DNA from: a bacterium
GTDB lineage: Bacteria > Electryoneota > RPQS01
NCBI GenBank assembly: GCA_018812265.1
Contig: JAHJDG010000168.1
Span: 1 to 41,008 of the forward strand
Direction of reading: 5' to 3'
DNA length: 41,008 nucleotides
This document shows, piece after piece, positions 26,711-40,287 of the stretch. The first letter of the stretch is position 1. Each line of letters starts with the position of its first letter. The notes under the pieces were generated by a model. That model was not told the DNA's origin, made no database searches, and was given only the letters and a program-made list of their open reading frames with translations. Both the position numbers and the translations under genes were made by a program.

Positions 26711-29401
26711 TTACATGATTATCTTGATTCCGGTAACGTCCTTACAGGCCGTAAGAATGTTCCTTACGTTCCCATCACCGTCAAACTGGGGTGTGGCCGT
26801 GATCAGAAGGGTTCGGATATCGCCGTTGGCGCGACGAATATCCACCGTGTAGCGGCTCCGGACTCCGCGGCGGCGGGCTTGGGTGTAGTCGCGAACGACT
26901 GCGAACTGTTCGGGAGTCATGAATTCGCCCAGACTCCTCCCCACAAGTTCCTCACTGGGAAGGCCGAACAGGCTCCCCATGGCCGGGTTGGCATAGACGA
27001 ACAATTCCTCCAAATCCACGATTCCGACGGCTTCGCCGAAATTGTCCACCAGCCAGCGCAGGCTCTCTTCGCTATCGCGCAGCGCCTGTTCCTCACGTAC
27101 CCGTTCGCCCACGTCGCGCAGAATGGAGAAGAATCCCGCGAGTTTTCCGTTTTCGTCAAGGATCGGATTGGCGGACGCTTCGACGTCAATCAGCTGGCCG
27201 TCTTTGGTGCGATGAACACTCCGACCCTTAACGACATGTCCGCCGCGGATGCGTTCGAGAAACACCGTATGGGCCGCGTCATCCAGATCGGCACCTCCCA
27301 GAATCCGATAGGTCTCGTGGCCGATGATCTCGTTGGGATCGTACCCGTACATCCGCGCGAATTCGGCATTCACGAAGGTGATAACTCCTTCCGGATCGGC
27401 CATGAAAACCGCTTCGCCCGAGGCTTCAATCGCCTTGCGAAGCGTGATGAGTTCACGTTGCGACTGTTTGCGCTCAGAGATATCGCGGGCGAAAACGCAG
27501 AGGATGGCGTGGTCACGGAGTTCTACGTAGTTGGCCCGTACCTCCACCGGGATTCTCCGCCCGTCGCCGGTAAGGTGGATGGTTTCCCGACTGAGCGCAC
27601 TCTTGATTCGGACCACCTCCCAGTCCCGTGCCCAGCGATTCCTGTCCAGATAGAGGTCAATATCGTGCCAGGTCATTTTCAGCAGTTCGGCGCGGGATCG
27701 GGCAAGTACCTTGCAGGCGGCATCATTCACGTACAATAGATGCGCGTCCGGGCCGATCCAGAAGACTCCATCGCCGGCGCAGTCCACCGCGAACTGAGTG
27801 AACCGCAAGGCTTCTTCCGAGCGTTTGCGTTCGAGTAGGGTCGAGATTTGCGCGGCAACCGTGGAGAACACTCGGACGTGATAGTCGGTGAAGAGATTCT
27901 CGGTTCGATAGCTTTGCACCACCAGTGCGCCGAACGGTTTCGACTGGCTGACCAGAGGAACGCCCAACCACGAGAGGGCCGGAGTTCCGTGCACCTTGGC
28001 CTCGCCGCGGCGCTCCATTTCGGCGTACTGTTCGGGATTCAGATAGAGAGGTCTGCCGTGGCGAATCACCCACTCGGTCAGAGCGTTTCCGAACGGACGG
28101 GGTTTCGGCGGCGGGTCCACTTCGTCAATGAAAATCGGAAACGAGATCATGTCCAATTGGGGATCATGAAGCGCGAGATAGTAGTTTTCAATCGGAACCA
28201 GCCGGCCGATCTGCGCGAAGATGCTGCGGAGCATCTCTTCCTGAGTGTCCGAGGTCGTTCCAATCTGCAATATCCGCAGCACGACGTCCTGCTCGAGTTC
28301 GGCACGCTTGCGTTCGGTAATATCCCGAACGATGGCGATGATGAGGGTTTCGTCGGCAACGCGAACGGAGGCCAGCGAAACTTCGCAGTCAATGAGCACG
28401 CCGTCCTTCCGCTTGTGCATCCAGTAAAAATTCTGAGGCTCGCCCCGCATGGCGGAGCCGATGTATTCCTTGGCTGCGGCGTCGGAGCGTCGTCCGTCCG
28501 GCTGGAGTTCGGGGGAGAACTCGACCGGCGAGTGACCGATAATATCTTCCGGTTCGCAACACCATAGTTCACAGGCTTTGCTGTTGCAGTCGCGGAAGAG
28601 TTCATCCATCAGGAAAAATCCCTCACCGGAGCGGCTGAATACGGTACGGTATTTCTCTTCACTCTCTCGCAGAGCCTCCTCAGTGCGTTGCTGACGATCC
28701 TGCATCTGAATGGCTTCGACTTTACGGGCCGCCAGATCGGCAAAGAGTTCCAAGTAGAAGAACGTCTCGGCCGTCGGGCGGCGTCCATCGGTCGGGTCAT
28801 CACAATTAATGGCTCCGATCACTCGCCCGTCCGCACCATACAGGGGAACATAGGCAAGATCCATTGCATCCCACGTATCCCCCGGTTGGGGTGTGCGACG
28901 ACCCGGCACCACTTGATCGGGAGGGACAATATCCGACAGTTTCTCGGCCGGAATAAAATAGGAGCGGCTGATCTTGTAGCGTTCGCTGTCCGGGCCGAAC
29001 AGCTTGGCCCGCTCTTCAGGCGCACGGCGATGAGTTTGCAGGAACTCGATGTCATCCTCCGTGCACCCATGATAGGCCGCCATCACGATATCCCAGTTCT
29101 CGAACACGTTAACCGTCACCGAACTCCAGCCAGCCTCCCCAATGGCGTTGACAACTCGCTGGAGGGTATTCTGTACGGTCTTGGCCTCCTGCACGGCCGT
29201 ACCCGCGCGCAGAAGCCGGGCGAGTTTATCGCGGGATTCCTCGATCTGCTTTGCATATTCATCAAGGACCTGCAAGGAATCGAAGCGTTCCTGTTCCTCG
29301 CTGATCCGCATGACCTCGATTTCTTCAAGCTCCATCAGCCGTCGCTGCAGAGCCTCGAATTCCTCAAGAAGTCCTTGATCGTATGTCTGGGTTACCGTCA
29401 T
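26711..29401 (-). CDS. Multi-domain GAF/PAS sensor protein without an output domain
   Basis: 896 residues, cytoplasmic (no membrane segment). Order: coiled coil 9-63, GAF 66-230 (WDAMDLAYVPLYGADGRVIG), PAS/PAC 242-366 (ending VRDITERKRAE), GAF 372-525 (LSWLGVPLVSQSKPFGALVV), then PAS/PAC at 528-646, 650-770 and 775-896, each closing with the usual DISERK, DVGERV or DVTGIK. In histidine kinases or diguanylate cyclases a HisKA, GGDEF or similar domain would follow the last PAC, but the frame ends GIKIIM at TAA. The other frames downstream do not continue into a kinase. It may act through partner proteins. The next gene downstream is the P-loop protein; upstream is the divergent C25-like giant. 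Confidence 0.92.
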   Translation of the reverse strand: MTVTQTYDQGLLEEFEALQRRLMELEEIEVMRISEEQERFDSLQVLDEYAKQIEESRDKLARLLRAGTAVQEAKTVQNTLQRVVNAIGEAGWSSVTVNVFENWDIVMAAYHGCTEDDIEFLQTHRRAPEERAKLFGPDSERYKISRSYFIPAEKLSDIVPPDQVVPGRRTPQPGDTWDAMDLAYVPLYGADGRVIGAINCDDPTDGRRPTAETFFYLELFADLAARKVEAIQMQDRQQRTEEALRESEEKYRTVFSRSGEGFFLMDELFRDCNSKACELWCCEPEDIIGHSPVEFSPELQPDGRRSDAAAKEYIGSAMRGEPQNFYWMHKRKDGVLIDCEVSLASVRVADETLIIAIVRDITERKRAELEQDVVLRILQIGTTSDTQEEMLRSIFAQIGRLVPIENYYLALHDPQLDMISFPIFIDEVDPPPKPRPFGNALTEWVIRHGRPLYLNPEQYAEMERRGEAKVHGTPALSWLGVPLVSQSKPFGALVVQSYRTENLFTDYHVRVFSTVAAQISTLLERKRSEEALRFTQFAVDCAGDGVFWIGPDAHLLYVNDAACKVLARSRAELLKMTWHDIDLYLDRNRWARDWEVVRIKSALSRETIHLTGDGRRIPVEVRANYVELRDHAILCVFARDISERKQSQRELITLRKAIEASGEAVFMADPEGVITFVNAEFARMYGYDPNEIIGHETYRILGGADLDDAAHTVFLERIRGGHVVKGRSVHRTKDGQLIDVEASANPILDENGKLAGFFSILRDVGERVREEQALRDSEESLRWLVDNFGEAVGIVDLEELFVYANPAMGSLFGLPSEELVGRSLGEFMTPEQFAVVRDYTQARRRGVRSRYTVDIRRANGDIRTLLITATPQFDGDGNVRNILTACKDVTGIKIIM

Positions 29402-29921
29402 TCGTTCGCCTCAGAACAGGGTCGCCTGTCCATAGTTGGTTGTTCAGAAGGCATGCCGTCGGGATTGTCCCATCTCAGAGTAGCAAATCTAATTCCGCCA
29501 GCGAGGCACGCCAAATCGTCCAGAAAAGGTCTTCTGGTACAGCCCACTGATTCGATTCTCCCCACCCGCTTCCTGCAACATTTCGGTAATCGTGCGAATT
29601 CACGCACAAAAAAACATTGGTTTAGTACTACGGGAGCCAGATCAAGAATGGCACGAAACTGCTACGGTTGCTTGGTGCTGACCCAGCAGAACAATTTCTC
29701 TAAATTGATCTTTCCTGTTGAATGTGGGCCGCATCTGGATTATATTCTACGTTTAATAGGTATTTCCTGGCCATGTGCCATGCGGAACATAATTACCCGC
29801 AAGGGCTGGGTCGCGTCTTTTTCCTATTTTACGGATCATGCAAGAGTTGATGTGGAACGGGATTGGCTTGCAAATGGATAGAAGCGCAACTGTGTTGAGA
29901 ACAAGTCTGGAGGTTTGGAGA
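29402..29921. other. Gene-free divergent region
   Basis: About 520 bp between the sensor gene and the first giant C25-like gene. It is AT-richer than its surroundings and should hold promoters for both, but I could not pick a convincing pair of boxes. A plus-strand frame is open from 29838 into the C25-like gene; the true start is taken at 29922. Confidence 0.55.
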
Positions 29922-32900
29922 ATGAGACTGCGAGGACTCCTTTCATTGCTGCTGCTGTGTGTGTGTTCCGGAATGGCTTGGGGCTCCTGGATATCCGTTG
30001 ACTCCGTGGTTCCGGATCAGCCCATGCAGATGACCGTTCGGAGTGACATAGCAAACTCCTGGCACGTCGAACTGACCGTACCCGGCGTGAACATCGAGTC
30101 GGTTACGGTTCCGGAGGGCACATTTGATCTGGTGGGTCTGCCGGATTGTCTGGCGGCGGGTCTCGACGGAGAACCCGATCTGCCCGTGTATGGCCGTCTT
30201 ATCGGTTTACAGCACCGTGGCGATCCGGAAATCGAGATTCTATCGGAGGAGTGGATTGATTTGGACGGCACCTTTGACGTCCCCTTCAATCGTGAAGGAA
30301 GTGACGCGGCGCGGCGGGCGGCTGTAAACGCGACCCGCAACGAATTCCTGCCCACTTCCCCGTATGAGCTCTCATCCCGCCAGGTGATCGGCGGCGTATC
30401 GGTAGCGGCCTTGAATGTCAGGCCGGTTCAGTACAATCCGGTTCAACGGACCGTGCGCGTACTACGCAACGTTTCGTTGCGCATTCGGGAGACCGGACCC
30501 TCGGCAGTTCCCACCCGCCCCATCACCGAGACGACGGCCAGTTTGCTGCGTCCGCTGATGCCCAACTGGAGCACGCTGAGTCTGGACGACATCGTGGTCC
30601 GCGGGACGTACATAATTATCATCGCGAATAACTCGCTCAAGACGAATCTTGCCGATTTCGCCACCTGGCACAATCGCAAGGGTCATCGAGTCGAGTGGGG
30701 TAGCCCGGATTCGATCAGCAGTTGGACAACCACCGGAATCAAGTCGTTCATTCAACGGCGATATAACGACGCGAATCCGCCCCTGGAATACGTCTGCATC
30801 ATGGGCGATCATGACGGCACGTACGCCGTTCCGGCCTGGTCGTCTCCGGATGACAATGACTGGGAGTACGCGCGTCTCGACGGCACCGACATGCTACCGG
30901 ACATCGCTATTGGCCGGTTCAGTTTCGGAACCACCACCGAACTGGCACCGCAGATTGTCAAAACACTGAACTACGAGCGTTCTCCGGCGCCGCCCAACGT
31001 GGCCACGAAACCGAACTGGTACAAGGCGGGAGGCGTATGCGGTGACTATCACAACGACACCTACATCTCCACGATCCAGACGGCAAGGTGGATTCGGATG
31101 CGGATGCTGGAGGCCGGCTACACAAACTCCAGCATTGACACCCTGTACTGGACGAACTATCACGGAAACGTCAGTGCGGCGGACATGGAGACGAGCATCG
31201 AATCCGGGGTATCCCTATGGGCATATCGCGGGTATCTGGACATGAACCTGTTCAGTGCAGCCAACGCCGACGCGCTCAGCAACCAGAGCGGGAATTGGCC
31301 GTTTATTCTGACGCTCACCTGCAGCACCAACGACTTCATGAGCGGTGACGACATTTGTGAACATCTGATGCACCCGATCAACTATCCTTCGGGCGGCGCC
31401 ATCGCCACCATTGGACAATCCTCGCTTTCGACCAATACCCGGTCGAACAACATTATGACCAATGGGGCGGTGCAGGGCCTGCTGCGGGAGGGCATCCACA
31501 CAACGGGCGGCTGTTTGAATCGGGCCAAGCTCGAAATGTACCTGAATTATCCGACCGATTCGAGCATGGTTCACCGCTTCCTTGGATATACGAATCTTCT
31601 GGGCGATCCGGCACTGGGCGTGTTTACGGACACTCCCGACACGCTGTTCGTGAACAATCCCTCTTCGATTTCCGTCGGAACGAACTATCTTACGCTCACG
31701 GTCACTGATTTGGGAAGTCAACCGGTTGAGGGCGCCTATGTGAATCTCGTCAAGGGATCGGAAGTTTACATGGGCGACTGGACGAATGCTTCCGGTCAAG
31801 TGACCATCAACTTTTCGACCACGACAGCCGAATCGCTGTACGTGACCGCCAGCAAACACAACTATCGGCCGGCGATGAATCGTTTGTGGGTAGGAACGGC
31901 GACGCGGTTTGTTTCGCCCGCGACCGGCAGTTTCCCATCCGCGGAGCCGGGTCAGGTGGTTGCGCTTACCCTGTCGCTGAAGAACTGGGGCACGTCCTCA
32001 GCCGGCGGCGTCGAGGCGACGTTGAGCACAAGCGATCCCTATATCACAGGCATCAGCGACAATTATGAGAGCTACGGCACCATCGCGGCGGGAGGTACGG
32101 TAACGCGAACGAGCGCGTTCACCTTCACGGTGAGCAGCTACGCTCCCGCCGGACACGTGCTTCAGTTTACACTGACCGTCAACGACAACCTCGCCAACAC
32201 GTGGTTGAGCACGGTACCGATAAGCATTTCGAACGGCGATTTCGAGTACTCGACCCACGGTTTGACTGGCGTCGGCGACGGCGTGCTCGATCCGGGCGAG
32301 AGTGGACAGATCTGGGTTCGGTTCCAGAACCTCGGGACCCGCGCGACTCCGGCCGGACTGACGGGTTATCTTTCCTGTCAGAATTCGGCGGTCACGATCA
32401 CCGACAACGCGGGCGTATTCCCCTCGGCGACGGCGGGCGGCACCTGCGACAATCAGGGCGATCCGTTTGGCATTACCGCGACGGCCAATGCGTATCCCGG
32501 CGAGCGGATTCCATTGGTCTGCACGTTCCCCCTGAGCAGCGGTTTCTCCGACACCGTTCGGTTCAACGTTTACATCGGCAGCATCGCGTCGAACGCTCCC
32601 ACTCCACCGGACGAATACGGCTATTGGGCGTTCGACAATACCGATGTTGCCTACGATAAGCATCCCACCTACAGTTGGATGGAGATTGACCCTCGGGAAG
32701 GCGGGTCCGGCAGCGCCGTCGCTCTTACGGATGACAATGACGGCGGTGACGTATCCACGACTGTGAGCCTGCCGTTTTCGTTCCGATTCTACGGCCAGGA
32801 CTTCAATGACATCACGATTTGTTCGAACGGTTGGATCGCGATGGGAGCGGATCAAGTCGAACATACCGATTTCCGGAACTACAATATTCCTTCCGCCAGC

Positions 32901-34562
32901 GGGGCGTCGGGAATGATCGCCCCGTTCTGGGATGACCTTCGTATTCCGCCCGCCTCGTCGCCCTCCCGAAGCAGCGACCAAGCACAGAGAAACGAAGTGG
33001 CTATTGACGAAGGTCACTATTTAGCCGTAAAGGCGGAGATTGAGGTCATCGAACAACGGTTGGCGGCCGCCACAGAGGACGAAAATCTTGAACCGTTGAA
33101 AAATCGTTTGGCGCAGCTCTACGAAGAACTCGGCGTCACGCCAAATGCACGGCAGCACGGCAACAGCCTGGATCAAGGCGGAGAGACCTGCGCAAACGCC
33201 ACCGTAATCTCGGGCGAGTCGGTTTCAGTCTCGGGGACTTTGGGCGCAACGGATGATTGTGTGTACCTGCGTCCCTACTTCGATGTATTCTACCGCTACA
33301 CGGTTCCTTCCACCGGACAGTATCAGATTGACATGTGTACCAGCGCCGGGGACACGTACCTTCGCCTGTGGACGGATGGAACGTGTTGTTCCGGCTCGAC
33401 CGTGTACGAAGATGACGCGTGCGGCGATTTGGATCCTCTCAGGCAAATCGGTTTGACGGCGGGTCAGATCGTGTATATCGAGTGCGGAATGTACAGCAGC
33501 ACGGGCACGCCGGGCGCATACAACCTGCACATCAATTTGCTCGGGAATCCCTGTGACAACGCCCGGATCATTCCCAGCATTCCGGCCAGTTTTGACAGCA
33601 CAACGAGCGGTTCGCCCGCGATTTATACCCCGCAATTGTGTGGATCAGGTAATTCGCCGGATGTTTTCTATCAGTACACACCAGCCGTCGTGGAAACGGT
33701 AACCATCACTACCTGCTTGGGAACCACAAGTTTCGACACCCGGTTGGTGGTATTCGAAGACGGTGTGGAGATTGCCTGCAGCGATGATGACTGCTCCAAC
33801 GGCACAATCTTTCCGAACAATGACTTGGCCAAGATTGACTTCCTGATCTTGAATCCCGGCCACACCTATTGCATTGACGTCACCGGATATAGTTCCGGTT
33901 ATTCCGGCAACTACACGTTGAGCATTCACCACTATACACCGGAAGGCGTGTATACGTATCATGACGCGGCCAACCATCGTTTCATCGTCGAGTGGAGCAA
34001 CATATTCAAGTGGTCGGGCAGCTCAACACTGGTGGATGAGACGTTCCAAGTCATTCTCTATCAGCCAGGCTACCCAACGACCCCCACCGGCGACGGTGAG
34101 ATACTGTTCCAATATGAGACCTGCAACAACACGCCGGATGCCTACGCGTCGAACGACTATGCAACGGTGGGAATCGAGAATTTCACCCAGACGGACGGAG
34201 TCCTGTACAGCTACTGGAACCTGACGAGTCCCTACATTCCGGGCGCGGCAACTATGACGAGCGGGCGGGCGATTCTGTTTACGACGGAGAAGACCGCCGT
34301 AATTCCCGCCGATCCCAAGGCACCGGAGAATCTGACCGCCATTTCGGGCGGCGGGGGCGTCGTCTTGCGGTGGAACGCGGTCACCGAGGACATCAACGGG
34401 AATCCGGTCTCGAACGTGCAGTACAACATTTACCGGGGAGCGACTCCCGATTTCACACCGGGCGCGGGTACGTACGTTACCACCGTGACCGACACGTTCT
34501 ATACGGATTCACCGTTGCCCGGCACGACAAACTTCTATGTCGTGGAAGCGGAGACTCCGTGA
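29922..34562 (+). CDS. Giant secreted C25 (gingipain-like) protein with a nested PPC module
   Basis: 1,546 residues. The ATG at 29922 follows GGAGGTTTGGAG and begins a signal peptide (MRLRGLLSLLLLCVC ... AWG). A pro-region is followed by a C25-like fold at about 225-570: TYIIIIANN, YVCIMGDHDGTYAVP, DMLPDIAIGRFS, WAYRGYLDMNLF, LTLTCSTNDF (C467) and LLGDPALGVF. The His of the gingipain GHG is Tyr438 here (YRGY). Ig-like repeats with PGESGQIWV follow. From about 899 (GYWAFDNT) comes a beta-sandwich with FYGQDFNDITICSNGWIAMG and APFWDDL. It is interrupted at about 1012-1341 by a module with helix, SLDQ and two PPC-like domains, then resumes at GVYTYHDAANHRFIVEWS. The C-terminus is Fn3-like. No sorting tail is seen. 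Confidence 0.88.
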   Translation: MRLRGLLSLLLLCVCSGMAWGSWISVDSVVPDQPMQMTVRSDIANSWHVELTVPGVNIESVTVPEGTFDLVGLPDCLAAGLDGEPDLPVYGRLIGLQHRGDPEIEILSEEWIDLDGTFDVPFNREGSDAARRAAVNATRNEFLPTSPYELSSRQVIGGVSVAALNVRPVQYNPVQRTVRVLRNVSLRIRETGPSAVPTRPITETTASLLRPLMPNWSTLSLDDIVVRGTYIIIIANNSLKTNLADFATWHNRKGHRVEWGSPDSISSWTTTGIKSFIQRRYNDANPPLEYVCIMGDHDGTYAVPAWSSPDDNDWEYARLDGTDMLPDIAIGRFSFGTTTELAPQIVKTLNYERSPAPPNVATKPNWYKAGGVCGDYHNDTYISTIQTARWIRMRMLEAGYTNSSIDTLYWTNYHGNVSAADMETSIESGVSLWAYRGYLDMNLFSAANADALSNQSGNWPFILTLTCSTNDFMSGDDICEHLMHPINYPSGGAIATIGQSSLSTNTRSNNIMTNGAVQGLLREGIHTTGGCLNRAKLEMYLNYPTDSSMVHRFLGYTNLLGDPALGVFTDTPDTLFVNNPSSISVGTNYLTLTVTDLGSQPVEGAYVNLVKGSEVYMGDWTNASGQVTINFSTTTAESLYVTASKHNYRPAMNRLWVGTATRFVSPATGSFPSAEPGQVVALTLSLKNWGTSSAGGVEATLSTSDPYITGISDNYESYGTIAAGGTVTRTSAFTFTVSSYAPAGHVLQFTLTVNDNLANTWLSTVPISISNGDFEYSTHGLTGVGDGVLDPGESGQIWVRFQNLGTRATPAGLTGYLSCQNSAVTITDNAGVFPSATAGGTCDNQGDPFGITATANAYPGERIPLVCTFPLSSGFSDTVRFNVYIGSIASNAPTPPDEYGYWAFDNTDVAYDKHPTYSWMEIDPREGGSGSAVALTDDNDGGDVSTTVSLPFSFRFYGQDFNDITICSNGWIAMGADQVEHTDFRNYNIPSASGASGMIAPFWDDLRIPPASSPSRSSDQAQRNEVAIDEGHYLAVKAEIEVIEQRLAAATEDENLEPLKNRLAQLYEELGVTPNARQHGNSLDQGGETCANATVISGESVSVSGTLGATDDCVYLRPYFDVFYRYTVPSTGQYQIDMCTSAGDTYLRLWTDGTCCSGSTVYEDDACGDLDPLRQIGLTAGQIVYIECGMYSSTGTPGAYNLHINLLGNPCDNARIIPSIPASFDSTTSGSPAIYTPQLCGSGNSPDVFYQYTPAVVETVTITTCLGTTSFDTRLVVFEDGVEIACSDDDCSNGTIFPNNDLAKIDFLILNPGHTYCIDVTGYSSGYSGNYTLSIHHYTPEGVYTYHDAANHRFIVEWSNIFKWSGSSTLVDETFQVILYQPGYPTTPTGDGEILFQYETCNNTPDAYASNDYATVGIENFTQTDGVLYSYWNLTSPYIPGAATMTSGRAILFTTEKTAVIPADPKAPENLTAISGGGGVVLRWNAVTEDINGNPVSNVQYNIYRGATPDFTPGAGTYVTTVTDTFYTDSPLPGTTNFYVVEAETP

Positions 34563-35067
34563 TCCCGAAATGATGACAACGGGACATGGCAGATGACATG
34601 CGAAGGGCCCGGGAATTCCCCCGGGCCTCTTGCGAAATAAATCTATCCAATCGGATAGGTTGTTATACGAGACAATTGAGATCAATCGGAAGTGATTGAT
34701 TAATGGGGAGTGGAAGTCCGCGCCTCACGGCCTTTTCTTTGCACGTTGACGCAACTCGATTGTGCCGGTGAAGACGGTCTTCATGGACAAGAGAAAGGAT
34801 ACGGCGCCGGAGTATTCCCGACCCGTGCCATGTCCACTTATTCCCGCCCGAAAAAGCGGCCTTTCCGCGAGGATTGAACCGCCTCCCATGCGGTCTACTG
34901 ACCCGAACCAAGCCGGGACCGGTCACAACTTGTAATGTTGTCACGACTTGTCGGCTCACCGGGGAGACGTATCCGTCGAGTGAGACGGTTGCATCTACAC
35001 CGGAGTTATGCTAAATTATTCGAGTTTTGCAGCAGGAAAACCGTCAACTTTGCAACTGAGTGAGATC
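34563..35067. other. Intergenic region between the two giant C25-like genes
   Basis: About 500 bp. It begins with the hairpin at 34606-34630 and has nothing else I can name. The 98-codon minus-strand frame at 34663-34959 shows no family features and no ribosome site. The second gene has its own signal peptide, and the terminator-like hairpin suggests it has its own promoter. Confidence 0.55.
34606..34630 (+). terminator. Terminator-like hairpin after the first giant C25-like gene
   Basis: 8-bp stem GGCCCGGG/CCCGGGCC with loop AATTCC, 43 bp past the stop codon. The following TCT is only a weak T-rich tail. Confidence 0.5.
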
Positions 35068-38000
35068 ATGGAATCTTGTCGCGGTCGGTTTCGATTTTCT
35101 CGTTGGTCAGTTTTAATCGTCGTCTTGTTGTCAGCTTTGGCTTGGCACGGCACGGCTGAGGCAGTCACCCAGAAGAGCGTCATGAGCGCCAAGAATCCGG
35201 CAGATTTCTACCGTTTGCCGGGTCCACAAGCCGTTCGAGAGATGCCGTCGGAGCTCCTGAACCCCAATCCGGAAGCGGTGCGAATCCGTTTCTACAATCC
35301 GCCGCTTGAGCTTGGCACCACCGAGATTGAAGGCATCGTGTATAACACCATCCGGCTGACGGGAGAAGCCGCGACGTTTGAGCCGGGCGCGCCCGACGTA
35401 CCGCGCGTGACGCGGCTCATTATGATCGGCAACACCGGCAACGTGGAGCTGTCGGTGGCCAATCAATCCTACACGGTCACGTCCAACGCGAATATATCTC
35501 CCCGGCAGATGCTGACGGGCGACACGGATGCTCCTGCGGGAGGAATCGTACCGCCCGATCCCGAGATCTACGGGATGAACGACTGGTTCCCTTCGACCGT
35601 CGTAGAGATCAGCCAGCCGGCCACGCTCCGGGACTTGCGTTTCGTGGTACTCCAGATCCATCCCGTTCAGGTGAATCCGGTCACGCAGGAACTGCGCGTC
35701 TACGACAATATCGAAGTCCTGATCTCGAACACGGGCGGCGTCGGGCCGAATGAGATTCCCTACACTCCGGTCTCGATCAGTCCCGATTTCAAGAAGCTGT
35801 ATCGGTCCTTCGACAATTTCGAGGGCAGCTATCTGGACCAGCTCCCCGTATTGCCCGGTAAGTATCTGGCGATCTGTCCGGACGCCAGCACTTCCATTGC
35901 CCAGACGCAGAAGCTGGTCAACTGGAAGAAGCAGCGGGGATTGGACGCCTACTACGCCACCACGACCCAAACGGGAACCTCCTCCTTGAATATTCGGACC
36001 TACATTCGCAACGAATTTCTCGCGTCGGGTGGAACACTTGAATACGTCTGCCTGGTGGGAGATCCGGACGGTTCGACGGGCTTTAACTTGACGAGCTCGG
36101 GGGATCTCGACAACTATTTCGGAGTGATGAATCCGGGGGAAGGCGAAAATCCCGATCCGGTTCCGGATATTGCCATCGGCCGCCTTTCCTGCGGTTCGGG
36201 CGATGAACTGAGCGCGACGGTTGCCAAGACGGTCAATTACGAATCGGCTCCCTACACGGTCAATTCGGCTTGGTTCACCAGCGCGTGGTGCGGCGTTCAC
36301 ACGTATGCGGGCGGGGAAGATGTGCTGTCGAATCCGTCCACCAAGGAATACACGCGGCAAATCATGCTGCAACATGGCGTGGGTACCGTGTATTGGAACC
36401 AATACTACAACGGCATAACCACGAGCGACATTGGTCAACGTCTGGGCGCGGGCATCTCGGTATTCAACCATCGGATGTCGTGGATCGGTCAGATCTCGAC
36501 CACGGACGTGAACAACAACGCCCCCTATAACGCGATGTCCCCGTTCGTGATGTCCATAACCTGCGGAACCGGTGGCTTTGCCAGCGGCAGCTCCGTGTCC
36601 GAAGAGTGGCTGTGTCCTTCCACGAGTCCATCCCCCAGCAATCCGCGCGGCGCTATCGGATGTGTTGGATTGTATGGATCAGGTACACATGTCCAATATA
36701 ACAACATCCTTGACGCGGGCACGATGTGGGGCATCTACGTGTTGGACATCCAGAGCCAAGGGGTGGCGCTAATCGCGGGCAAGCTTGACCTTTACCGCAA
36801 CTACTACCTGACATCGCCGTCGTCCGTCGCCGATTTCTGCGAGTGGGCGAATCTGATGGGCGATCCGGCCGTACCGATCTGGCGGCACTTTCCGGTCACT
36901 CAGACGGTCACACGTCCGACCACAATCCGTCGCGGGACCAACAACGTGTCGCTACGCGTCGTCAACTCCCAGACCTCGCTGCCGGTCGAAGACGCCTTCG
37001 TTTGTCTGTGGAAAGGCACGGAAACGTACTCCCGCGGCTACACGAGCACCAATGGATACGTGAACCTTCCCTGCTCGACGTCCACCACGGGCTACCTGCG
37101 AGTGACCATCACCAAGGACGATCTGCGGCCATACGTTGATTCGATTCAGGTGGTCAGTGCAACGGCCTCTCTGGCGCTGAGCACGGTCATCGTAGACGAT
37201 GACAACATCGGCGGCACTATCGGTAACGGCAACGGTGTCATCAGTCCCGGTGAAACCGCCGATCTCACGATCCGGCTGACGAACACGGGCACGTCATCCA
37301 CAGTAACGGGCATTTCCGGTACTCTGCTCACTTCGTCGCCCGGCATTCAAATCACTCAAGCGACAAGTACCTATCCGAATATCACAGTGGGTGGAACGGG
37401 GAATCCCGTCACGCCGTTCCGGATTGTTGTCACGTCGGTGTTCCACAACGAGCCGGTGGCGCTCTTCTTGGCCCTTACATCCTCGGCGGGAGCGGAGACC
37501 GTGCGCGTGAATCTGACCCCGAGTGCGGCGGACGTGGAATACGTCAGCCATGCCTTCGGGGGTCCCGGCGGCAATACCGATCCCGGCGAATCGGGGAGCC
37601 TGATGGTCACGTTCCGCAACAGCGGCGCGCGGTCGCTGGTCAGCAGTCAGGCCGTGTTGAGAACCAACGACCCGAACATATACATCACCGATTCGCTGGC
37701 AAACTACGGCAACGTTAACGCGTTGGCCACGGCCACGAATAGCACCGATCCGTTCAGTATTCAGATCAGTCCGGGAACCTTCAACGGCCATCGAGCGGTG
37801 ATGGAACTGGTGGTGTGGGACGCCAACGGTTTTCGCGACAGCACGCTATTCGATAGCACGGACTTCTACACAACGGACTCGACTCTGTTCAGTCCGGTTG
37901 TGACGAATTTCTTCCTGACCATCGGCACGCGCACTTCGACCAGCCCGTCGGGACCGGATGCCTACGGCTATTATGCCTTCGACAATACCGAGACTCAACC

Positions 38001-40287
38001 GATGGGTTCGGGCGCGACGTATGAGTGGGTGGAGGTCGGCCCCGGCGGTCCGGGCACGTCGTTGAATTTCTCGGATACGGGAGACAATCTCGATGCCAGC
38101 ACGACCCTCACGTTGCCGTTCAATTTCACATTCTACGGTCAGACGTTCACTCAGATCACCGTTTGCACCAACGGCTGGCTGGCGTTCGGTTCGTATCCGA
38201 TCACGGATTACCGCAATTACCGGATGGGCACCTCGATCGGGCCGCCGTATATGGTGGCCGCCTACTGGGATGATCTGTGGATCAGCGGCACCAGCAATAA
38301 CGTGTACTACTACTATGATGCGACCGAGCACCGCTATATCGTGGAGTGGCGCGCGCGCACGCTGCACAGCCTGGTCAATGAATTCTTCGAGATCATTCTC
38401 TATGATCCGGCCTACTATCCGTCGGTGAGCGGAGACGGAAAGGTCAAGGTCCAATATCAGACCTGCACCCCCAGTTCGAATACCGGCGGGAGCAATGATA
38501 ACGCCTACGCTTCCGTGGGAATTCAGAACGGCGATCATTCGATCGGACTCGACTACTACTACGCCAATCAATACGGTCCGGGAGCGGCCACGCTGCAGAA
38601 CGGCCTGGCGATCATGTATACGACCGACGCGAGCGGGCAGCTGTTCTCTTCGGCGGAAGTGACGCTTCCGAACGGCGGTGAGAATTGGTACGTCGGGGAG
38701 ATTCACAACATCCAGTGGTACACCACCGGCGTTCAGGGTTTGGTTGACATCGAGCTGAATCGCAGCTACCCCGGCGGTGCCTGGCAAATGCTCTTTGAGG
38801 ATGCGATCAACGACGGTTCACAATCCTGGTCCGTATCCAGTCCGGCGGTATCGGGGACGGCGCGTATTCGGGTGACAAGCGTGTCGGATCCTTCGGTCGG
38901 CGACACGTCCGACACTTCGTTCAGCATTTCCACGCCGTCCATCACCCTGACGACACCCAACGGCGGCGAACAATATGCTCAAGGCTCCGGAATGGACATC
39001 ATCTGGTCCACCGTCGGCATCGGGCTGGTGCGCGTGGAGATCAATCGCAGCTATCCCTCGGCGAGCTGGGAAGAGGTTACGGCCCAAGCCGTCGGCAGTT
39101 ACTATTGGGTCGTCACGGATCCGCCGACGTCCACGGCTCGCATCCGCCTCACCGGAAGGACCGTTCCGACGGTGGGAGACACATCGGCGGCCAACTTCAC
39201 CATCGGAGTCCCGCCGGTCGTCGCTCACGTGGCTCGATCGGACGTGCAGCCGGGACCGGCACTCTTCGTGGCACAGGTCACCGATGACGTCCCCGGTTTC
39301 GTGACGCGGCTCCTCTACCGTGTAGAGGGCGCGCCTTCGTGGGATTCACTAACGTTTGCCACAACGGGTAATCCCGATGAATTCGCGGCCACGATTCCCA
39401 GCGTGAGTACCGGCACCTATGAGTACTATGTGCGAGCCATGGATCCGCAGGGATTGTTTGCTCGCGTCCCGGTATCGGGAACCTACTCATTTGACGTAGG
39501 GGCGTGGGGTGACGATTGTCTGGTCTATGACGACGGAACGGCAGAGAATTACAACTGGGTGAACGGACCCGGTTTCCAATGGGCTGTGAAATTCAATTCG
39601 GGCACGTATCCCTACATGCTCGCCGCCGGACGTTTTGCGATTTGTCCGACCACTCCGGGATCCATCCACGCCCCGATCGTGTTCCGCGTGCTCGACGCCG
39701 ACGGACCCGGCGGAATGCCCGGGAGCGTGCTGTTCGTGGACACGACCGGCTCGGCCGGAAACGTGATCGGCGGTCTTCCGTCGGGCGCGGCTTGGGCGGA
39801 GGTGGTCACTCGCGTGGGCGGGCAGCCCCTGCAACTCAACGGCCCGTTCTATCTGTCGGTGCAGAATATTGAACCGCGCATGTACCCGGTCGCGTTCGCG
39901 CACGACACGGCGGGCACCCGCAATAATCTTTCGTTCCTCTACGACGCCTGCGAAGAAACCTGGTTCAATGAGAACAACGGCCAGGAGAACAACCGGCCGG
40001 GGAATCGAATGATCCGCGCGTGCGGTTTGACTCTCGAAGCGGTGGAAGAAGTCGTCATATCGAGAACGGATAGCGCCGGCATAATCAGCGCCCGACTGCG
40101 TTGGATCTCAACGGGCGCGCCCTACTATAAGGTGTACAGCTCCGCCTCGGCTTCCGGTCCGTTCGACACATTGGAAGGAACCATAGCGGGAGTGCCCGTC
40201 GGAAACACGGTGATTTTCACGGATCAGGGCGCGGTCAGTGAAACGCTGAAACGATACTACCAGGTGATCGCGACCGACACACCGTAG
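35068..40287 (+). CDS. Giant secreted C25 (gingipain-like) protein, second paralogue
   Basis: 1,739 residues from the ATG at 35068, which starts the signal peptide (MESCRGRFRFSRWSVLIVV ... AEA). The frame is open from 35008, but that ATG has GGAG only 3 nt away and no signal peptide directly after it. C25-like segments: YLAICPDAS, LEYVCLVGDPDGS, VPDIAIGRLS, FNHRMSW (467-472 from N), SITCGTGGF with C499, and LMGDPAVPIW. Ser471 stands where gingipains have the catalytic His. Then come Ig-like repeats, an uninterrupted beta-sandwich at about 965-1190 (FYGQTFTQITVCTNGWLAFG, AAYWDDLW, HRYIVEWRA), two tandem Kre9/KNH-like repeats at about 1195-1385 (LPNGGENW, TPNGGEQY), and a C-terminal beta-rich part ending Fn3-like. 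No sorting tail is seen. Confidence 0.88.
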   Translation: MESCRGRFRFSRWSVLIVVLLSALAWHGTAEAVTQKSVMSAKNPADFYRLPGPQAVREMPSELLNPNPEAVRIRFYNPPLELGTTEIEGIVYNTIRLTGEAATFEPGAPDVPRVTRLIMIGNTGNVELSVANQSYTVTSNANISPRQMLTGDTDAPAGGIVPPDPEIYGMNDWFPSTVVEISQPATLRDLRFVVLQIHPVQVNPVTQELRVYDNIEVLISNTGGVGPNEIPYTPVSISPDFKKLYRSFDNFEGSYLDQLPVLPGKYLAICPDASTSIAQTQKLVNWKKQRGLDAYYATTTQTGTSSLNIRTYIRNEFLASGGTLEYVCLVGDPDGSTGFNLTSSGDLDNYFGVMNPGEGENPDPVPDIAIGRLSCGSGDELSATVAKTVNYESAPYTVNSAWFTSAWCGVHTYAGGEDVLSNPSTKEYTRQIMLQHGVGTVYWNQYYNGITTSDIGQRLGAGISVFNHRMSWIGQISTTDVNNNAPYNAMSPFVMSITCGTGGFASGSSVSEEWLCPSTSPSPSNPRGAIGCVGLYGSGTHVQYNNILDAGTMWGIYVLDIQSQGVALIAGKLDLYRNYYLTSPSSVADFCEWANLMGDPAVPIWRHFPVTQTVTRPTTIRRGTNNVSLRVVNSQTSLPVEDAFVCLWKGTETYSRGYTSTNGYVNLPCSTSTTGYLRVTITKDDLRPYVDSIQVVSATASLALSTVIVDDDNIGGTIGNGNGVISPGETADLTIRLTNTGTSSTVTGISGTLLTSSPGIQITQATSTYPNITVGGTGNPVTPFRIVVTSVFHNEPVALFLALTSSAGAETVRVNLTPSAADVEYVSHAFGGPGGNTDPGESGSLMVTFRNSGARSLVSSQAVLRTNDPNIYITDSLANYGNVNALATATNSTDPFSIQISPGTFNGHRAVMELVVWDANGFRDSTLFDSTDFYTTDSTLFSPVVTNFFLTIGTRTSTSPSGPDAYGYYAFDNTETQPMGSGATYEWVEVGPGGPGTSLNFSDTGDNLDASTTLTLPFNFTFYGQTFTQITVCTNGWLAFGSYPITDYRNYRMGTSIGPPYMVAAYWDDLWISGTSNNVYYYYDATEHRYIVEWRARTLHSLVNEFFEIILYDPAYYPSVSGDGKVKVQYQTCTPSSNTGGSNDNAYASVGIQNGDHSIGLDYYYANQYGPGAATLQNGLAIMYTTDASGQLFSSAEVTLPNGGENWYVGEIHNIQWYTTGVQGLVDIELNRSYPGGAWQMLFEDAINDGSQSWSVSSPAVSGTARIRVTSVSDPSVGDTSDTSFSISTPSITLTTPNGGEQYAQGSGMDIIWSTVGIGLVRVEINRSYPSASWEEVTAQAVGSYYWVVTDPPTSTARIRLTGRTVPTVGDTSAANFTIGVPPVVAHVARSDVQPGPALFVAQVTDDVPGFVTRLLYRVEGAPSWDSLTFATTGNPDEFAATIPSVSTGTYEYYVRAMDPQGLFARVPVSGTYSFDVGAWGDDCLVYDDGTAENYNWVNGPGFQWAVKFNSGTYPYMLAAGRFAICPTTPGSIHAPIVFRVLDADGPGGMPGSVLFVDTTGSAGNVIGGLPSGAAWAEVVTRVGGQPLQLNGPFYLSVQNIEPRMYPVAFAHDTAGTRNNLSFLYDACEETWFNENNGQENNRPGNRMIRACGLTLEAVEEVVISRTDSAGIISARLRWISTGAPYYKVYSSASASGPFDTLEGTIAGVPVGNTVIFTDQGAVSETLKRYYQVIATDTP

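Follow-up and report, generated by a model that had tools for sequence, protein, structure and literature searches.

A PPC-type module nested in a β-sandwich loop of a secreted C25-like protein, with cargo of differing ancestry among its orthologues

Host gene and insertion site

The window, the whole 41,008-nucleotide stretch of DNA analysed here, comes from contig C168 of a MAG of 3.5 Mb (235 contigs, 97.5% complete, 2.9% contamination) and carries two C25-like genes, the second directly following the first in window order. The first gene encodes the host protein, which runs from a signal peptide through a C25 propeptide, a C25-like domain and Ig-like domains into a NIDO-like β-sandwich with a nested insert, and terminates in an Fn3-like end. 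Pfam matches comprise Peptidase_C25 (1.3e-45), Propeptide_C25 (5e-13) and NIDO (8.5e-4, below cut-off), and PorU models match the host family far below cut-off. The features of the locus, all on the plus strand, are as follows.

29922..34562, plus: host C25-like protein; the frame opens at 29838 and the ATG at 29922 is the likely start
32655..32939, plus: first half of the host β-sandwich, ending in FWDDL (pLDDT about 80–98; profile and split matches)
32940..33947, plus: whole nested insert, 336 aa, in place of a 4–16 aa loop
32976..33128, plus: charged helical hairpin of the insert, aa 1047–1077 and 1085–1097 (AlphaFold2 helices, pLDDT about 83–92)
33168..33185, plus: LDQGGE motif, opening the first PPC-like domain; most inserts have it, as do free proteins close to their mature N-terminus
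33168..33536, plus: PPC-like domain 1, cargo type A (PPC tree)
33543..33941, plus: PPC-like domain 2, grouping as sister with domain 2 of the insert in G008 (100/97)
33948..34340, plus: second half of the host β-sandwich, starting VYTYHDAANHRFIVEW (profile gap, right-half tree, AlphaFold2 model)
35068..40287, plus: C25-like paralogue with an empty loop; the frame opens at 35008
38278..38301, plus: empty 8-residue loop of the paralogue, equivalent to the insert site (sequence comparison)

The insert separates two strands of the host sandwich without disturbing the reading frame, generating a gap of 336 residues between FWDDL (aa 1030–1034) and VYTYHDAANHRF (from aa 1371). At the equivalent site of the paralogue, only 8 residues lie between YWDDL (aa 1086) and VYYYYD (aa 1099). 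A preliminary description of this DNA had proposed a PPC-like module nested in the sandwich with the frame kept on both sides, and the single open reading frame at 29838–34562 bears this out; its estimate of about 330 intervening residues is likewise close to the measured value. The insert had been placed at 32956–33945, a location that stands with a slightly wider extent. Its contents are as first described (a charged helix, LDQGGE and two Cys-containing PPC-like domains), the helix resolving into a helical hairpin. The junctions carry no flanking repeats longer than 7 bp, and a search of the same genome for a near-identical donor returned only matches of about 35 bp. The base composition of the insert (54.7% GC) departs little from that of its flanks (58%), giving no sign of recent transfer.

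The host resembles gingipain-like Peptidase_C25 proteins and PorU in combining a C25 domain with a propeptide and in retaining the catalytic Cys, but differs in having Tyr at the gingipain catalytic His position and in being without a T9SS tail. With Cys present but Tyr at the His position, it is doubtful from sequence that the scaffold is a protease. Members of this C25-like family from Cloacimonadota, LCP-89-like and KSB1 relatives mostly have Tyr, Trp or Ser in place of the gingipain catalytic His, within the motif NYRGY/W, and nearly all of those aligned retain the catalytic Cys; the family may be read as a pseudoenzyme or as using another catalytic arrangement. Neither window C25-like protein (29838–34562 and 35008–40287) yields a Por_Secre_tail or CHU_C match, whereas several paralogues in the same genome do carry the T9SS sorting tail. 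Upstream of the host gene, in divergent orientation, the minus strand at 26711–29401 encodes an 896-aa protein that appears by eye to be sensor-like, with several PAS and GAF-type domains.

Fold of the insert and its free-standing counterparts

AlphaFold2 predicts both halves of the window protein's sandwich with confidence (pLDDT about 80–98 and 72–97), and the helical hairpin reaches 83–92. The first PPC domain is modelled at about 50–82 and the second at low confidence (30–85). The alignments comprised the window protein and related loci and left out the free PPC proteins, and the insert is modelled less well for this reason. Structure prediction had been suggested as a check on the sandwich: the confidence of its two halves is established, and its closure around the insert is consistent with the model while staying unproven, as no inter-domain error was returned.

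The one-PPC orthologue from DeMMO2_36 gives a clearer model (mean pLDDT 82.5), in which the inserted domain follows a disordered linker and lies between two confident halves; its core is mostly at 85–93, with some blocks at 56–66. In Foldseek this model matches 5sv5, the PPC domain of Bacillus anthracis collagenase, at TM 0.78, and 1nqd, the ColG collagen-binding domain, at TM 0.66–0.70 (target-normalised), with probability 1.00. The two-PPC model of the window protein returned no Foldseek match at E <= 0.001. Additionally, a profile of the inserted domains matches 2luw in the PDB (E 4.3e-5), and a PDB sequence search with the insert alone gave nothing meaningful. The Pfam PPC model (PF04151) scores the insert domains below threshold, at E 0.06–0.85 and at best 14.6 bits against a gathering score of 25.9. 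On the predicted structure of the DeMMO2_36 relative, rather than of the window protein itself, the inserted domain has the PPC/collagen-binding-domain fold. The inserted domains share with 5sv5 and 1nqd this fold and an attachment to peptidase-like secreted proteins, but are Cys-rich, fall below the Pfam gathering score and are nested rather than C-terminal.

Across the order's 13 genomes, about 290 PPC copies form a reservoir. In free secreted proteins encoded by the window's own genome and by relatives, charged helices, LDQGGE and PPC domains follow the signal peptide in the arrangement seen in the insert; one example from the same genome, on contig C157, is 1360 aa long and carries Por_Secre_tail. 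The insert had initially been taken for a complete extracellular protein, a view that does not hold: it is without signal peptide, Fn3 and T9SS tail, so that it represents an N-terminal module, and by sequence it resembles the mature N-terminal piece of the larger T9SS-tailed secreted proteins common in the order. Such a module is able to exist apart from the host, being present in free proteins and forming a confident core in the one-PPC model. In the insert of G008 (L096, G008:C353) the PPC domains are followed by two further Cys-rich linker units, GRCCYGDP...C, and units of this type also join PPC domains in free proteins.

Filled loops across the order and the ancestry of their cargo

Loop length, taken as the gap between profiles of the two sandwich halves across the collected relatives' loci, is bimodal: about 165 sandwiches have 4–16 aa, versus 149–437 aa in nine proteins (ten entries, the window host being counted twice). 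These nine, the window host included, are filled at the same site and come from six genomes in two families of one order. The filled orthologues are G008 JAHIZR010000103 (437 aa), G007 JAGVEU010000199 (160 aa), G011 DYHQ01000012 (159 aa), G012 JAUXGA010000005 (336 aa) and JAUXGA010000002 (159 aa), and three genes of G002 (149–151 aa). The expectation that other genomes would hold the sandwich with and without the insert is thereby confirmed, with eight filled relatives in five other MAGs beside the many empty copies.

An order-wide search with an empty sandwich as query against 13 genomes agrees with this division. Among the roughly 150 matches listed, nearly all cross the loop or stop elsewhere, and those that break at the loop are exactly the nine hosts, their matches stopping at query residue 108–122 and, for seven among the matches listed, resuming in the second half at 106–114. 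About ten paralogues in the window's own genome have an empty loop, as do the best matches outside the order (G023, G026, G037 and others).

The nine hosts form one clade at 100/100 in a tree of the 800 residues before the insert, and again at 100/98 on the residues after the insert alone; on the last 100 residues before the insert their grouping is not rejected (p 0.09). The flanks of the insert belong to one domain, as split matches, the right-half clade and the models agree, removing the concern that its bordering strands might derive from different domains. No empty or lost loop was found among the recognised orthologues of the host clade. Since every one of them is filled, the loop was first filled before the two families of the order diverged, and the event is, on these sequence comparisons, not recent. 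The filled and empty genes lying next to each other had been read as both states of one visible event; the neighbour is instead a deep paralogue.

Cargo ancestry departs from host ancestry. In a PPC tree of 77 domains, built on only 135 alignment columns, the first PPC domains of the inserts fall into four separate groups among free-standing proteins. Type A unites the window host, G008 and G012a with free proteins (100/99); type B comprises G002a, G002c and G007 (inside 97/94); type C joins G002b and G012b to a free G011 protein (99/85); and type D places the G011 insert with free G012 proteins (100/87). The three copies of G002 thus hold two cargo types, and in family f2 three hosts forming one clade (96/98 or 96/91) hold three. 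The G012a insert (helix, LDQGG and PPC) pairs as sister with a free protein encoded in the same genome at 100/93, helices included, with 46% identity over 295 aa and 73% DNA identity over 338 bp; none of the free proteins is near enough, as a donor, for a transfer to be dated.

The best host tree requires at least five cargo-type changes against a minimum of three, and because this tree is weakly resolved within the clade, three changes (four types in one clade) are the safe minimum. Placing the three type A hosts in one lineage is still allowed (AU p 0.20). In G011 the type D domain looks, in sequence, more like what is left of an A-D array after trimming than like a fresh filling, and even with D so counted, three different N-terminal modules (A, B and C) have occupied the loop.

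Proposed history, alternatives and known systems

The reading considered probable is that a single loop opening, of ancient date, took place in a tail-less secreted C25-like clade, that its cargo was later replaced, and that the nested module adds binding surface. Under this account, the short loop joining the FWDDL strand to the next one in the C-terminal NIDO-like sandwich would have opened once, in one orthologous clade, and received a helical hairpin, LDQGGE and one or two PPC domains from the mature N-terminus of PPC secreted proteins. The loop would have stayed open ever since, its cargo being swapped among at least three different N-terminal modules over time and partly trimmed, most simply by recombination with free PPC genes. 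Refilling of the loop appears to have taken place three times or more, and a single mixed array, trimmed differently, possibly accounts for part of the variety. A more tentative proposal, set slightly below even, regards the loop as an exchange site in active use, in which nested PPC cassettes are repeatedly overwritten through recombination with the reservoir of free PPC genes, such that the C25-like scaffold retains its cellular location and the binding module changes.

Chance and artefact are excluded as the source of the insert. A chimeric assembly or binning error might be suspected in a MAG of 235 contigs with 2.9% contamination, yet it is barely credible given the intact frame on both sides, the small shift in base composition (54.7% versus 58% GC) and the filling of the same site in the independent assemblies JAHIZR010000103, JAUXGA010000005, JAUXGA010000002, DYHQ01000012 and JAGVEU010000199; the assembly artefact named as a risk in the preliminary description falls away on the same evidence. 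Very improbable, too, is one capture followed by vertical descent, with the cargo types arising by divergence of one insert. The shared site, the single host clade and the LDQG or LDEG opening of most inserts would suit such a history, but a single clade of all nine cargo PPC1 domains, a group defined by position in the host and not by the tree, is rejected by the AU test under the model used (p = 8e-66, lnL difference 264).

That a longer mixed PPC array was captured once and then underwent lineage-specific losses, with no later replacement, is unlikely but draws on real arrangements: mixed arrays such as A-D and B-D exist in free proteins, and the G011 insert carries a GPHLD prefix directly before its D-type domain, as though A had been deleted. 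Against it, types A, B and C each start with their own LDQ/E-G motif, and A and B are N-terminal in free proteins, so that one array should not hold all three; moreover, two PPC domains are the most that any orthologue carries, and the nearest relative of G012a is a free protein from the same genome. Replacement of the cargo after one opening is preferred for the evolutionary course.

As to function, the PPC domains are expected to project sideways from the host domain and to provide an extra protein- or matrix-binding surface, the specificity of which would change with the cargo. In the E495 metalloprotease, a PPC domain attaches to protein substrates and makes the enzyme catalytically more efficient on them (PMC3327674), and a PPC-containing segment of Grimontia collagenase binds triple-helical collagen (PMC6168687). 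The competing view that the insert is ballast which the host tolerates, or a spacer with no part in binding, concerns this function only and is compatible with the evolutionary account; it is not the likely reading. The variation of the inserts in size (149 to 437 aa) and type and the absence of the helical hairpin from six of the nine hosts speak for it, while the retention of an insert in every orthologue and the use of one domain family in all fillings, with conserved Cys and DVFY-type positions, speak against it.

Domain insertion is in itself ordinary, occurring in 20% of multidomain proteins with a median inserted-domain size of 115 aa in one survey (PMC13114784). The same survey finds inserted domains to be compact with termini close together, which makes a PPC-type fold suited to insertion. 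Like the A1-B-A2 insertions described there, the present insert is a compact domain with its own fold interrupting a loop of another, and its size of about 110–130 aa per PPC fits the median; it differs in combining a constant site with cargo of different ancestry among the orthologues of one clade. The lineage-specific BEAN/HABAS insertions in RNA polymerase (PMC11515920) are similar in being polyphyletic insertions of one domain family in a host protein, but they are independent insertions into old lineages rather than one socket changing cargo within an order. What stands out is that a single loop seems to have been filled several times over. A literature search returned nothing on LCP-89 or on PPC domains in a nested-loop setting, and a search on domain replacement at one site found none.

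Domain insertion is common but mostly observed as a single event fixed in the past; here, one site is combined with varied cargo and with many empty paralogues as controls, and two already evolved modules appear to be recombined as socket and cargo. The system therefore lets one ask which properties allow a loop to take up foreign domains, how frequently exchange occurs and whether function follows the cargo, providing a worked case from an almost unstudied phylum with T9SS-type secretion. The genome itself encodes SprA (G000:C200:433-6474, 770 bits), and its Por_Secre_tail domains number at least 150, an example of T9SS beyond Bacteroidota in which tailed proteins are very numerous.
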